Assembly: GCA_027491075.1 (NCBI GenBank)
Contig: JAIXWX010000011.1
Location: forward strand, 1 to 64,000
Direction of reading: 5' to 3'
DNA: 64,000 bases
Source: Flavobacteriales bacterium
GTDB taxonomy: Bacteria; Bacteroidota; Bacteroidia; Flavobacteriales_D; Sanyastnellaceae
Part shown: piece by piece, positions 30,427 through 37,105 of the stretch
How positions within the stretch are numbered: the first letter of the stretch is position 1
Layout: each line of letters starts with the position of its first letter
Position numbers and translations under genes: made by a program
The notes under the pieces: generated by a model
Told to the model about the DNA's origin: nothing
Databases searched by the model: none
What the model saw: only the letters and a program-made list of their open reading frames with translations

Positions 30427-32694
30427 TCACGGATAATCTGTAATGATACCGTCTACTCCAACTTTTAATAGCTCAGCTACTATTGCAGAATCATTAACCG
30501 TCCAAGGAATAATTCGAAGACCGCGTTCATGACAGAATTGAACAACGGAATCGGTCACGAGCAAATAATTCGGACTATATATTTCTGGAATATATCCCAA
30601 AACTTCGATCACTTTCGTAGGACTTACTTCCTCCTCCACCAATACCGCGGTAGATATATCTTGGTTTATTTTTTTTACTTCTTGCAAAGCTTTCACATCA
30701 AAAGATTGAACTACGGAACGATCAAGGACATCGCATTTCTCCAAAACTTGAATCAAAAGTTGAGCAAAGACATCCTGTGTGGGATGAAAACTATGCGCCC
30801 CATCCACAATAGACTTAATTTCAATATTATAAAAAGGCTTAGATCTGTTCAACTCTGTTGCTCTTTGCTCCGAAAATTTTATGACCTCTTCGAGCGTGGG
30901 TATTTTCACTTCCAACTTCTTTTGATCTGGAAATCTTGGATTCGCAATTTGCCCACAACTATACAACTGAACCTCCTTTAGACTCAAACTAAAAATAGCA
31001 ATCGGCTGCTCGACGTCACAAAGACTTGGCAGAATCTCTAGATCGTGACAAACGACAACAACGCTATCCCTCGTAACAACGCAATCCATTTCCAAGGTTG
31101 TAACTCCGAGCTCGAGGGCCCTATTAAACCCTGGTATACTGTTTTCAGGCATAAGACCACGACAACCTCTGTGTCCTTGTAGATCAAATGCTCCTTTCAG
31201 ACGCACACGATAAATGAAGACATACTCTACAATTTTGCTGCGTTTATAAACAGGAAACTTCTCTATCAACTGAAATTGCAAAAAATCCTCATTCTTTTCA
31301 GGATCTTGAAAGAAATGTGAAGTTGTTATATAAAAATGCCAGTCATTGACAGAAGGACTTTGTTTCTGTTCATTTATAAAAGAAAAATGATGCAGGGCAT
31401 TTAAAGAACCAATACCAAAATAATCCACATCATTTGGCTCTGCAACATAGTGAGCTATATGCGCTCCCGGAAACCACTTGGAAAACAAAACCTGTGCATT
31501 CTTCTTTACCAAACCCTCTTCCTCTGCCCTTTCACGAATTCCTTTAAAATATATTCCTATATCCTCCCATCCGTACATGTCTAGGGTAAAATCGAATCTA
31601 CCAAGTCTATTTTGTAATGTGTTTTGGTGATCAAAAGAAATAGTATTTACAGCTATAGGACCAATAAAAAGAACAAACACTGAGAGAAAAAAAGCAGATA
31701 TAATAATGTATATCCTTTTAGCAAAAATCACCCCTGCTGGAAGAAGTAATAAGGTATAGGCTGGAGCACTCCAGTGAGGAAGTGTTTCATGCTGAAAAGA
31801 AAGAAATAAAAAAACTATTATTACTGGCAATGTTGTACATAGAATTAGTCTGTCCAGCTTTCTGGTAAGTACTCTTCTCCTAAATAACCAGAAGAGAGTG
31901 ATAACAATGAGTACAAATACGATTGGATTATTATAGGCTATACTGCCTCCCAATTCTTTGAAAAACCAGTCCCAATGCCAATTTTGGCCACTTGAAACTC
32001 GATTTCCTTGAAATACGAATGACACAAAATCATTTTGTGCATTCCAAATAATAACCGGCAGAGTTAACATACCAGTCACTAGTGCCCCTGCATAGATATG
32101 GGGAGATAAGAACCACTTTCTTTGAAAAAAAATGGCGTACACACCTATTCCAAACCACAAGAAAAGAACATGAATTTTGGAAAGAAAACCTAGTCCGCAA
32201 AAAAGACCTAAAAGAAACCAACGCAGATATGAATACTCCCCTTTTATAACGATTCGAATCAACTGATAGAATGCCAATAACAAAAAAAACAACATTCCTG
32301 TATCCGGCATGATAAATAAACCTGCAATGACTGATAAATAGAATGAGGAGCAACTTAGTAATGCTGCAGCAACAGCCGCTCTTCTTTCCGAAAACAATAG
32401 AACACTTCGATAGATAATCACAATATTGAGTGTACCTAGAATAATCGGGAAAAGACGGATAAAAAATTCCTGATGAAAGGTATTACCTGCTGTCCCCAGC
32501 CAGATTAGCCATCCCACCATCGGAGGGTGATCAAAAAAACTTAGCTGCGGAAACTTAGAATAAAAAGTATAATATACCTCATCATTTCCCAGTTCTAGGA
32601 AGCAAGCTCCTACGATTCGCAACACTACGAACAGCGCGACGATATGATAAATCGCCCAAGGATTTACCATCCAATTTTCTAGAGATCTTCTCAT
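30427..32694 (-). CDS. Fusion of GT-C (PMT/ArnT-like) glycosyltransferase and glycerophosphodiester phosphodiesterase
   Basis: 755 residues in one unbroken frame. Residues ~10-365 hold about 11 membrane segments with the GT-C catalytic loop LGNDEVYYTFY and FFDHPP after TM1, as in polyprenyl-phosphate-sugar-dependent PMT/ArnT enzymes. Residues ~366-505 are a soluble part. Residues 507-755 are a full GDPD domain: H508-R-G, PEN 516-518, E535 and D537 in LEMD, H550 in VVCHD, E625 and K627 in IEIKS, and the closing GIITDYP. With the N-terminus inside and 11 segments, the GDPD domain would be periplasmic. The GT half could glycosylate a lipid or envelope acceptor while the GDPD half cleaves a glycerophosphodiester. 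The pairing is unusual; the substrate is unknown. Its start overlaps the PHP gene by 113 bases. Confidence 0.85.
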   Translation of the reverse strand: MRRSLENWMVNPWAIYHIVALFVVLRIVGACFLELGNDEVYYTFYSKFPQLSFFDHPPMVGWLIWLGTAGNTFHQEFFIRLFPIILGTLNIVIIYRSVLLFSERRAAVAAALLSCSSFYLSVIAGLFIMPDTGMLFFLLLAFYQLIRIVIKGEYSYLRWFLLGLFCGLGFLSKIHVLFLWFGIGVYAIFFQRKWFLSPHIYAGALVTGMLTLPVIIWNAQNDFVSFVFQGNRVSSGQNWHWDWFFKELGGSIAYNNPIVFVLIVITLFWLFRRRVLTRKLDRLILCTTLPVIIVFLFLSFQHETLPHWSAPAYTLLLLPAGVIFAKRIYIIISAFFLSVFVLFIGPIAVNTISFDHQNTLQNRLGRFDFTLDMYGWEDIGIYFKGIRERAEEEGLVKKNAQVLFSKWFPGAHIAHYVAEPNDVDYFGIGSLNALHHFSFINEQKQSPSVNDWHFYITTSHFFQDPEKNEDFLQFQLIEKFPVYKRSKIVEYVFIYRVRLKGAFDLQGHRGCRGLMPENSIPGFNRALELGVTTLEMDCVVTRDSVVVVCHDLEILPSLCDVEQPIAIFSLSLKEVQLYSCGQIANPRFPDQKKLEVKIPTLEEVIKFSEQRATELNRSKPFYNIEIKSIVDGAHSFHPTQDVFAQLLIQVLEKCDVLDRSVVQSFDVKALQEVKKINQDISTAVLVEEEVSPTKVIEVLGYIPEIYSPNYLLVTDSVVQFCHERGLRIIPWTVNDSAIVAELLKVGVDGIITDYP

Positions 32695-33889
32695 TTCGTC
32701 TGACGAAGATAAAAATCCAAGTAAACCCTACTATGAAGATAATGATAAATCGATAAATTGCCGTTTTTAATGGGTTCACCACAGCGCCTTGTGAACTTTT
32801 CAATACTTCGCTACCGCCTCTTACTATTGGATTGGTGTATAACACTCTGCCGTCGGTTGTTACTAATTCAAATCTGGCATAAGAATAATCTCCTGGAAGT
32901 CGAAAGGATAAGTCCTTTACGTCGGAATAACGTCTTAAGGTGTCACTGTGATCACCAATTATCATAACCGACTTGAAGCTAACCAACGACTCAAGAATAA
33001 TGGTGTCTACCCTCACAGAAATCGAATGCAAGGGACTTTCCTTTGTCACCTCAGTTCTTTTAGTGTTACAATCTGAATTCGTAGCCTCAAGGAATTCTAC
33101 TGCTATGGTTCTACCACTCTTCAATGCATGACCAAGCAACAGCGGATTTGGATTCTGAGAAAAAACAAAGGTCCCACATCGACCAATATCTCGTGGTTTT
33201 CGGATATCATGACAATCATCACTACCCACAATGGGAAGATATTTTCCTCTTGTCAATACTTCATCCCATAACCACTTCGACTTTCTAAGCTTATTTATAA
33301 CCTCAAAGCAGTGCGCTCCGTCCAAAGAAGCAATATCCTCAGCGGAGTATGCCTCTCTTAAAGATGGATGGGCAAGCACAATTACACCTTTGGGATTCTT
33401 ATCTCTCAACTTGTATAGAATGGTTTGTTTTTGGTGGACATTCTGAAAAAAAGGAAAATCCAACCATTCAATTTGACTCCCACCTATCACTAGTTGATGA
33501 GTTTTACTTATGCCCCAACCATGCTCATAGGTGTGTAAACCCGATGTTGATGAGTGTGAAAGCTTATGATAATTTGAAACTTCATAAAGATCATATCCTA
33601 AATTCTTGTAAGTGTCCATTACCTGTTGCTCGGTTCCATATCCATTCAACATGCCACCCCAACAGTCCGAATGGGCATGAAAGTTAGACATGAAACCTCT
33701 GGATAAATCTACGTTCTCATAAGGATTAAACAAGATCTCACCATGAAAAGGACTTGAAGGTGTCAAGTCAAACCAAAAGCACTGGGTATATAAAAGAACA
33801 GCAACGCTGAGTAACCCGAGCAAACTCAAACCTAAAATTCGAGCAAAATTCCGAAACCTCATTACCCATCGTGCACAATTCATATTCAA
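32582..33889 (-). CDS. Membrane-anchored PHP-domain phosphoesterase-like protein
   Basis: 435 residues. TM1 about 15-37; then a PHP-type domain with metal-site motifs HAHSD (71-75), Glu103 in YEVSNY, His174 in LAHPSL, and a D-x-H (D225, H227) in GSDDCHD; then a beta-rich region (~285-360); TM2 about 379-396. The predicted topology places the PHP domain outside the cytoplasm. PHP domains hydrolyse phosphoesters (polymerase-associated, histidinol phosphatase, and others); the substrate here is unknown. The last ~37 residues (from about 399) lie in the overlap with the next gene, are Arg/Ser-rich, and may be incidental. Likely cotranscribed and coupled with the GT-GDPD gene. Confidence 0.72.
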   Translation of the reverse strand: MNMNCARWVMRFRNFARILGLSLLGLLSVAVLLYTQCFWFDLTPSSPFHGEILFNPYENVDLSRGFMSNFHAHSDCWGGMLNGYGTEQQVMDTYKNLGYDLYEVSNYHKLSHSSTSGLHTYEHGWGISKTHQLVIGGSQIEWLDFPFFQNVHQKQTILYKLRDKNPKGVIVLAHPSLREAYSAEDIASLDGAHCFEVINKLRKSKWLWDEVLTRGKYLPIVGSDDCHDIRKPRDIGRCGTFVFSQNPNPLLLGHALKSGRTIAVEFLEATNSDCNTKRTEVTKESPLHSISVRVDTIILESLVSFKSVMIIGDHSDTLRRYSDVKDLSFRLPGDYSYARFELVTTDGRVLYTNPIVRGGSEVLKSSQGAVVNPLKTAIYRFIIIFIVGFTWIFIFVRRNEKISRKLDGKSLGDLSYRRAVRSVANRRSLLPRTGK

Positions 33890-35201: not shown

Positions 35202-35576
35202 CTACGACTGGTCTCTTGTTTCTACTTCCGATCCGAAAAGGGATACACTGACATTTTCTACTTGCCCTCCCATAGGAGCATTAATCTTAACGATTTCAAC
35301 CCACTGATCCGAGCTGTTGGGAAAGGTGGTTCTTAACCTTTGAATGATCCGCAGTGCTACAGCTTCAATGAGTTTTGAAGGTATCGCCATCTCTTGGTAA
35401 ACAATCTCTTTTACCAAAACATAATCAACTGTTTTGCTTAAATCATCACTTTTGGCGGCTTCGGAAAAATCAAAATCAATGGATACATTTACAATGTAAT
35501 CACCTCCAATAACAGTTTCCTCTGGCCAACATCCATGATTAGCCCGAACGTTTATTCGGTTGAGACGAATATTCAT
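35202..35576 (-). CDS. folB: Dihydroneopterin aldolase
   Basis: 124 residues; converts 7,8-dihydroneopterin to 6-hydroxymethyl-dihydropterin and glycolaldehyde in folate synthesis. Seen: NVRANHGCWPEE, DYIVNVSIDFDF, SKTVDYVLVKEIV with the catalytic-site Glu region, LIEAVALRI, and a C-terminal KINAP with the conserved Lys. Last gene of the pyrH-frr-gltX-folB run, five bases after gltX. folC lies elsewhere in this window (56403). Confidence 0.92.
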   Translation of the reverse strand: MNIRLNRINVRANHGCWPEETVIGGDYIVNVSIDFDFSEAAKSDDLSKTVDYVLVKEIVYQEMAIPSKLIEAVALRIIQRLRTTFPNSSDQWVEIVKINAPMGGQVENVSVSLFGSEVETRDQS

Positions 35577-35581
35577 TCGAT

Positions 35582-37105
35582 CTATCCTAGTTTTGAAATA
35601 GCACTATTAATACGCGATTGTGACTCCTCTCTTCCAATCAGAGCCGCTACCTCGCTACTCGCAGGACCAGTAAGGACTCCTGTCAAGCACAATCTGAATA
35701 AAGGCATCACTGCTCCCATTCCTAAGGATTTCTCAGTAATGAAATCTTTGAAGGCCTGTTCTATCACGTCAGATTTAAAGTCTTGAATACTGCTTAATCG
35801 TTCAGACCATTCCGCCATTAAAGCGGCACTCTCCGAGGGTTTCCACTTTTTAGAAACCGCATCTCTATCGAATTCCTTAGGCGCTTCGAATAAAAAAGGA
35901 CCGTCCAGCAAATCTTGAATAAATATCGCTCGCTCCTTCATTAGTGCGCAAACTCCTGCGGCATATTCCTTCGTAACGTTCCAGCCTTTTTCTTGCGCGA
36001 GCGGAAGAATCAAATCTGCCAACTCTTCGTTGCTCTTTGCTCTTAGATACTGTTGATTGAACCATTTGGTTTTTTCGGGATCAAACTTGGACCCACTCTT
36101 TCCGATTCGTTCAATAGTAAAGGCTTCAATCATTTCTTGCTCCGTGAAAATTTCTTGGTTATTGCTTGGAGCCCAACCGAGCAGAAGAAGCATGTTGACA
36201 AATGCCTTTGGAAAATAGCCACGTTCGCGGTATCCGGAACTTTGCTCTCCAGTAGTAGGATCTGACCAGTTCAAAGGGAATACAGGGAATCCTAAACGAT
36301 CGCCGTCTCTCTTACTAAGTTTACCATTGCCATCGGGTTTCAAAATCAATGGCAAGTGAGCAAACTGCGGTGCTTCCCATTCAAACGCTTTGTACATCAT
36401 CACGTGCAGAGGCGCCGAAGGCAACCACTCTTCCCCGCGAATAACGTGCGTAATCTCCATGGTGTGATCGTCTACAATATTCGCCAAATGATAAGTAGGC
36501 ATGCCATCACTTTTGAAAAGCACTTTATCATCCAATTCATTGGTATTGAAAACCACCCAGCCGCGTATAATATCGTGAAAACGGACCTCTTCATTTCGTG
36601 GCATTTTGAAACGAATCACATATGCCTCACCATTCGAAATGCGTTGCGCCACCTCATCTGCAGGAAGAGTTAGCGAGTTTTTCATCGTATTTCTACTGAT
36701 GCTATTGTATTGCCAATTGGGCATTTTGGCAAGCTCCGCTTGTTTGCGAATATGATCCAATTCCTCCGATGAATCAAAAGCATAGTACGCCCATCCTTTC
36801 GCCACCAATTCTTCAGCGTATTGTCTATACATGGGCTTGCGCTCACTTTGGCGATATGGTGCATGCGGACCACCATAGCCGACACCTTCGTTGGGCTCAA
36901 TACCACACCAACGCAAAGCTTCTAGAATATACTCTTCAGCACCAGGAACAAATCTTCCCTGATCGGTATCTTCAATGCGCAACAAAAAATCACCTCCGTG
37001 TTTTTTTGCAAAAAGATAATTATAAAGCGCAGTACGCACACCGCCCATGTGTAATGGACCTGTTGGGCTAGGGGCAAAACGCACCCTTACACGTTTGTCG
37101 GACAT
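35582..37105 (-). CDS. gltX: Glutamyl-tRNA synthetase
   Basis: 507 residues, class I synthetase charging tRNA-Glu. The HIGH-equivalent is PSPTGPLHMGGVRTALYN, and the KMSKS-equivalent is KLSKRDGD, both normal for bacterial GltX. The anticodon-binding C-terminal region covers about 330-507. Discriminating GluRS versus a Gln-tRNA-mischarging form cannot be judged here. Nine bases after frr. Confidence 0.97.
   Translation of the reverse strand: MSDKRVRVRFAPSPTGPLHMGGVRTALYNYLFAKKHGGDFLLRIEDTDQGRFVPGAEEYILEALRWCGIEPNEGVGYGGPHAPYRQSERKPMYRQYAEELVAKGWAYYAFDSSEELDHIRKQAELAKMPNWQYNSISRNTMKNSLTLPADEVAQRISNGEAYVIRFKMPRNEEVRFHDIIRGWVVFNTNELDDKVLFKSDGMPTYHLANIVDDHTMEITHVIRGEEWLPSAPLHVMMYKAFEWEAPQFAHLPLILKPDGNGKLSKRDGDRLGFPVFPLNWSDPTTGEQSSGYRERGYFPKAFVNMLLLLGWAPSNNQEIFTEQEMIEAFTIERIGKSGSKFDPEKTKWFNQQYLRAKSNEELADLILPLAQEKGWNVTKEYAAGVCALMKERAIFIQDLLDGPFLFEAPKEFDRDAVSKKWKPSESAALMAEWSERLSSIQDFKSDVIEQAFKDFITEKSLGMGAVMPLFRLCLTGVLTGPASSEVAALIGREESQSRINSAISKLG

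Follow-up and report, generated by a model that had tools for sequence, protein, structure and literature searches.

The window that we analyzed, a stretch of 64,000 nucleotides of contig JAIXWX010000011.1 from a Flavobacteriales bacterium (genome G000), carries on its negative strand a gene that joins a membrane glycosyltransferase (GT) to a glycerophosphodiesterase (GDPD). The open reading frame (30427 to 32694) runs from ATG to stop without interruption over 755 codons, as the original prediction had read it, and it has a full-length homologue in another genome. Residues 1 to 500 constitute a PMT_2/GT-C glycosyltransferase and residues 508 to 755 a GDPD domain; a search against the Pfam database matched PMT_2 at residues 55 to 217 (E value of 1.1 × 10−25, 91.2 bits at a cutoff of 26.1) and GDPD (PF03009) at residues 508 to 755 (E value of 1.3 × 10−34, 120.9 bits at a cutoff of 23.6). 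Read from its start, the gene encodes an 11-transmembrane (TM) GT-C core (31639 to 32694, residues 1 to 352) with the LGNDEVYY, FDHPP, and LPHW motifs and the PMT_2 match, then a predicted periplasmic C-terminal domain of the GT (31195 to 31638, residues 353 to 500), a junction (31174 to 31212, residues 495 to 507, comprising RVRLKGAFDLQG and its flank), and finally the GDPD TIM barrel (30430 to 31173). The fusion is present as a single copy in its genome, a draft assembly of 3.02 Mb in 34 contigs. Immediately upstream and on the same strand lies a gene (32582 to 33889) for a membrane-anchored PHP/CehA-McbA-like metallohydrolase, whose start codon is uncertain. The end of this PHP gene overlaps the start of the fusion gene by 113 bp (32582 to 32694, negative strand), out of frame, which suggests that the two genes are translationally coupled.

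The first half had been proposed, from the letters alone, to be a PMT/ArnT-like GT-C enzyme with an LGNDEVYY catalytic loop, and both the PMT_2 score and the presence of the loop bear this out. The acidic N-D-E motif (residues 37 to 39) falls within the predicted first extracytoplasmic loop (residues 35 to 75) of the multispanning core. In an alignment of 22 GT homologues, the invariant residues E39, Y41, Y42, and F54-D55-H56-P57 are all present in the fusion, and R80, P130-D131, K173, W217, R232, and L305-P-H-W308 are likewise invariant, as are W376, W407, Y416, G429, and H435 in the periplasmic C-terminal domain. Unfused Bacteroidota PMT_2 glycosyltransferases (GT39/ArnT-like) share these motifs and this C-terminal domain; the nearest ones are 38 to 40% identical over approximately residues 8 to 506, and those of the family terminate a few residues at most from the start of the GDPD in the fusion. 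A profile built from 20 GTs recovered ArnT (5ezm; E value of 0.0019), matched weakly over positions 32 to 339, and protein mannosyltransferase 2 (6p25; E value of 0.0022) as the only solved relatives, and the NCBIfam ArnT model gave no match to the GT at an E value of 0.001 and none listed at 0.1. Because only 7 sequences could be aligned, the GT half of the AlphaFold model was poor (pLDDT mostly below 60), and the best 50 matches of the structure search listed GDPD-type structures.

Membrane topology was assessed by the positive-inside rule, with helix limits taken from the low-confidence AlphaFold model. When 11 segments are assumed, K and R residues of the GT number 18 among 82 cytoplasmic loop residues versus 4 among 128 periplasmic ones, and the homologous fusion from the second genome displays the same charge pattern (16 versus 4). 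Given the low confidence of the GT model, the topology is based on hydrophobicity and charge; it predicts that the N terminus lies inside and that the GT tail and the GDPD lie outside, on the periplasmic face. The charge counts thus support the earlier suggestion that an 11-segment topology brings the GDPD to the membrane side on which GT-C enzymes are active.

The catalytic residues named for the GDPD half, H508-R509, E535, D537, H550, and E625, were all correctly assigned and are invariant across 55 aligned GDPDs; moreover, every fully invariant position of the GDPD family in this alignment is retained in both known fusions. The near-invariant proline that follows the catalytic H550 (HDP/HEP) is replaced by L552 in the window (31040 to 31042) and is a proline in the second fusion, and in both fusions the GDPD insert lacks a short segment. 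The GDPD region of the AlphaFold model has pLDDT values mostly between 80 and 95. The closest solved GDPD is 3ch0 from Cytophaga hutchinsonii, at 38% identity (phmmer E value of 4.5 × 10−54), and a Foldseek comparison with this structure yielded a TM-score of 0.87, normalized by the target, i.e., a TIM-barrel fold. Free secreted or lipoprotein Bacteroidota GDPDs of the 3ch0 type, which share the catalytic residues of the fusion, are mostly proteins of about 300 amino acids with a hydrophobic leader. Such a leader precedes the GHRG motif in 42 of the 53 free GDPD relatives, many of them of the lipoprotein type, whereas the fused GDPD has none: in its place stands the 11-TM glycosyltransferase, whose tail enters the first GDPD strand at about residue 503. 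The 11 membrane segments and periplasmic tail of the GT would stand in for the GDPD signal peptide. The genome of the window encodes no other leader-bearing GDPD, its only further GDPD being leaderless and 37% identical, and none was found in the genome with the second fusion, where a free GDPD could have been missed because the assembly is 87% complete. In the GDPD tree, the fused domains have as their nearest row a GDPD from G001, of the same genus, that does carry a leader; the support for this placement is weak (82/88). We infer that the fusion probably captured an exported GDPD.

The second fusion comes from a genome of the same family but a different genus (G049, contig CAMAYP010000165.1) and shows the same architecture over residues 1 to 755, with 60% identity and one gap; at the junction, the two proteins are identical at 13 of 13 positions. 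Maximum-likelihood trees were built separately for the GT part (22 rows) and the GDPD part (55 rows), and the two fusions are sisters with support of 100/100 in each. Their end branches are also similar, 0.29 and 0.37 in the GT tree and 0.41 and 0.43 in the GDPD tree, which together with the sister relationship indicates one fusion event followed by codivergence of the two halves. Amino acid identity between the fusions is 0.59 to 0.61 in each of three segments that span both halves, whereas their 4-fold degenerate sites agree at 0.26 to 0.29, i.e., are saturated, and this disparity points to purifying selection on both halves.

The pairing, which had been flagged as an unfamiliar one, was indeed rare. 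It occurs in 2 of approximately 115 genomes of the family, and no fusion besides that of the window was detected among 395 genomes of the class (E values up to 1 × 10−40) or 395 genomes of the phylum (E values up to 1 × 10−65), two overlapping samples that are confined to this phylum. Two genomes of the same genus, G001 (69% complete) and G002 (99% complete), yielded no copy, so the distribution is patchy. The plasmid collection held no record covering 80% of the fusion query, and the viral contigs contained no GT relative and four distant GDPDs. One GDPD that is 35% identical to the Bacteroidota ones lies on a 348-kb contig cataloged as viral (L096, IMGVR_UViG_3300012582_000004), which may be host DNA. 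Several other long GDPD frames were considered as GT-GDPD fusions and rejected: in G018 the frame contains a free 280-amino-acid GDPD, in G080 the GDPD is followed by other domains, and in G016 an 803-amino-acid frame (L075:1469-3880) encodes GNAT and nitrilase domains followed by a lipoprotein-like signal and a GDPD, being either a GDPD joined to an unrelated neighbor or a case of an internal start. A 1,419-residue open frame of G957 was also set aside, the GT there being a separate 528-amino-acid open reading frame. Our literature searches found no paper on a PMT_2/GT-C and GDPD pairing; as far as the searched literature reaches, the joint architecture is undescribed, while each half is a member of a known family. 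Collectively, the fusion is a real, maintained, and rare pairing of two familiar enzymes.

The upstream metallohydrolase, which the original prediction had not mentioned, revealed a broader linkage. The PHP protein possesses one N-terminal and one C-terminal TM segment and the metal motifs HAH, EHG, HP, and DDxH (HAH, H123, H131, H174, E196, D224/D225, and H227). Its score against the NCBIfam CehA/McbA model is 33.8 bits, below the cutoff of 80, and CehA/McbA was matched at E values up to 0.001 by all 17 proteins of the PHP alignment. A Pfam search with the window protein returned no family at E values up to 1, the PHP model included, and a PHP profile search for solved structures found none. 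A PHP homologue also adjoins the second fusion, but in convergent orientation, and PHP genes adjoin unfused GT genes in five genomes of the family (G007, G042, G012, G132, and G016) and in two of another class (G922 and G957). In G851 (L101:283-3066), a PHP-type hydrolase and a GT39-like GT are encoded in one open reading frame of 927 amino acids, which argues that the two enzymes share one pathway. Three further genomes (G024, G055, and G047) carry the PHP gene on a contig other than that of the GT. Overall, the PHP protein was found in 10 of the 10 family genomes that have this GT versus 1 of the 9 (G008) tested without it, counts that are not independent because the genomes are related. Neighborhood and co-occurrence thus make the PHP protein and the GT look like one pathway. 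Elsewhere, PHP homologues lie beside other PMT_2 proteins (G815, G738, G570, and G808) and beside GT2 enzymes resembling polyprenyl-phosphate sugar synthases (G713, G698, G805, and G808).

Some further features of these loci deserve mention. Three PHP proteins (L082, L083, and L085, from G042, G132, and G016) carry QxQ (NFQIQS/NFQVQS) instead of HxH as motif I and keep the other metal motifs, possibly reflecting altered metal use or lost catalysis. In three distant genomes, gltX is located close to the GT/PHP locus (35202 to 37105 in the window, L093:4153-7988, and L146:2790-7984); it is adjoined by folB in the window and in G066 and is accompanied by GT2, PMT_2, and PHP genes in G808. The GT39 gene has a PAP2 phosphatase gene adjoining or next to it in two further families of this class (L089:5601-6251 and L092:8798-9439).

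The same comparison excluded the GDPD as a general partner of the GT. No free GDPD gene was found next to a GT or PHP gene in the loci inspected, and no GDPD gene at all was detected in G024 and G055, both of which carry the GT and the PHP protein, so the GDPD appears to be an accessory. By these gene neighborhoods, the stable partner of the GT is the PHP metallohydrolase and not the GDPD.

GT-C enzymes use lipid-linked donors and act outside the cytoplasm, three-component systems of this kind having been described (PMC11127046), and GDPDs cleave glycerophosphodiesters and lysophospholipids in a divalent-metal-dependent manner via a cyclic phosphate (PMC10404611). Against this background, we consider it rather likely that the single-origin fusion is a bifunctional enzyme of the inner membrane whose two active sites face the periplasm. 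On this side of the membrane, the GT half would draw its sugar from a polyprenyl-phosphate donor, the donor class being carried over from its family, and would share a pathway with the neighboring PHP-type metallohydrolase. The periplasmic tail of the GT would lead with almost no linker into the GDPD barrel, replacing a free exported GDPD, and on that same side the barrel would hydrolyze glycerophosphodiesters or lysophospholipids, removing headgroups by the cyclic-phosphate mechanism. The fusion would thereby provide the GDPD with export, anchoring, and colocalization with the GT, and sequence evidence, to the extent that it can, supports this tethering and colocalization. The nearest analogies are partial. 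LpgD, the lysophosphatidylglycerol phospholipase D of Staphylococcus aureus (PMC10404611, where the cyclic-phosphate mechanism was proposed for the GDPD group), resembles the fusion in that a hydrophobic element at the N terminus keeps a GDPD barrel at the membrane. However, its anchor is one helix, whereas here an enzyme serves as the anchor; the identity in structural alignment is 18 to 19%, and the LpgD NCBIfam model scores the fusion at 28.8 bits versus a cutoff of 450. In the PHP-GT protein of G851, the same GT family is fused to an envelope hydrolase, but that hydrolase is of the PHP type and N-terminal, and no GDPD is present.

A stronger reading, which extends the coupling put forward in the original prediction, is that both halves act on a single acceptor: the lipid or glycan glycosylated by the GT would also lose a glycerophosphoryl or headgroup substituent to the combined action of the GDPD and the PHP protein, making the locus a three-enzyme, periplasmic envelope-remodeling unit. 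Three points speak for it: the fusion has survived deep divergence with every junction residue kept, the GT has as its conserved partner a further hydrolase, from a superfamily rich in phosphoesterases, and all three domains are predicted to be periplasmic. On the other hand, G024 and G055 have the GT and the PHP protein with no detected GDPD, free GDPDs were not found beside either gene in the inspected loci, and no known product requires all three enzymes. The fusion itself, its rarity, and the predicted side of the GDPD are supported, but orthologous GTs with neither a fused nor a neighboring GDPD speak against an obligatory coupling, and we regard this reading as possible but unlikely. If true, coupled remodeling by PHP, GT-C, and GDPD enzymes would represent a pathway so far undescribed in Bacteroidota.

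Even less probable, in our assessment, is a neutral or near-neutral read-through of two neighboring genes, by which the halves would share only an anchor and one of them might be inactive. Free GDPDs do join unrelated neighbors, as in the GNAT-nitrilase-GDPD frame of G016, but the catalytic residues and purifying selection are maintained in both halves and both species, the signal peptide region has been excised cleanly, and the junction does not vary. The idea that two genes were joined near position 31177 by faulty assembly or sequencing (an assembly error there had been named in advance as a potential refutation) finds no support beyond the draft status of the 34 contigs and is effectively refuted by the second, independent genome, whose fusion of the same kind is 60% identical.

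Gene fusions and fixed neighbors are clues to pathways. The bifunctional, membrane-tethered enzyme that we favor sits within a linkage that ties an uncharacterized Bacteroidota GT-C family to a PHP-like hydrolase and, in the two species with the fusion, to a GDPD, and the locus thereby leads to a three-enzyme hypothesis for the modification of envelope lipids or glycans.
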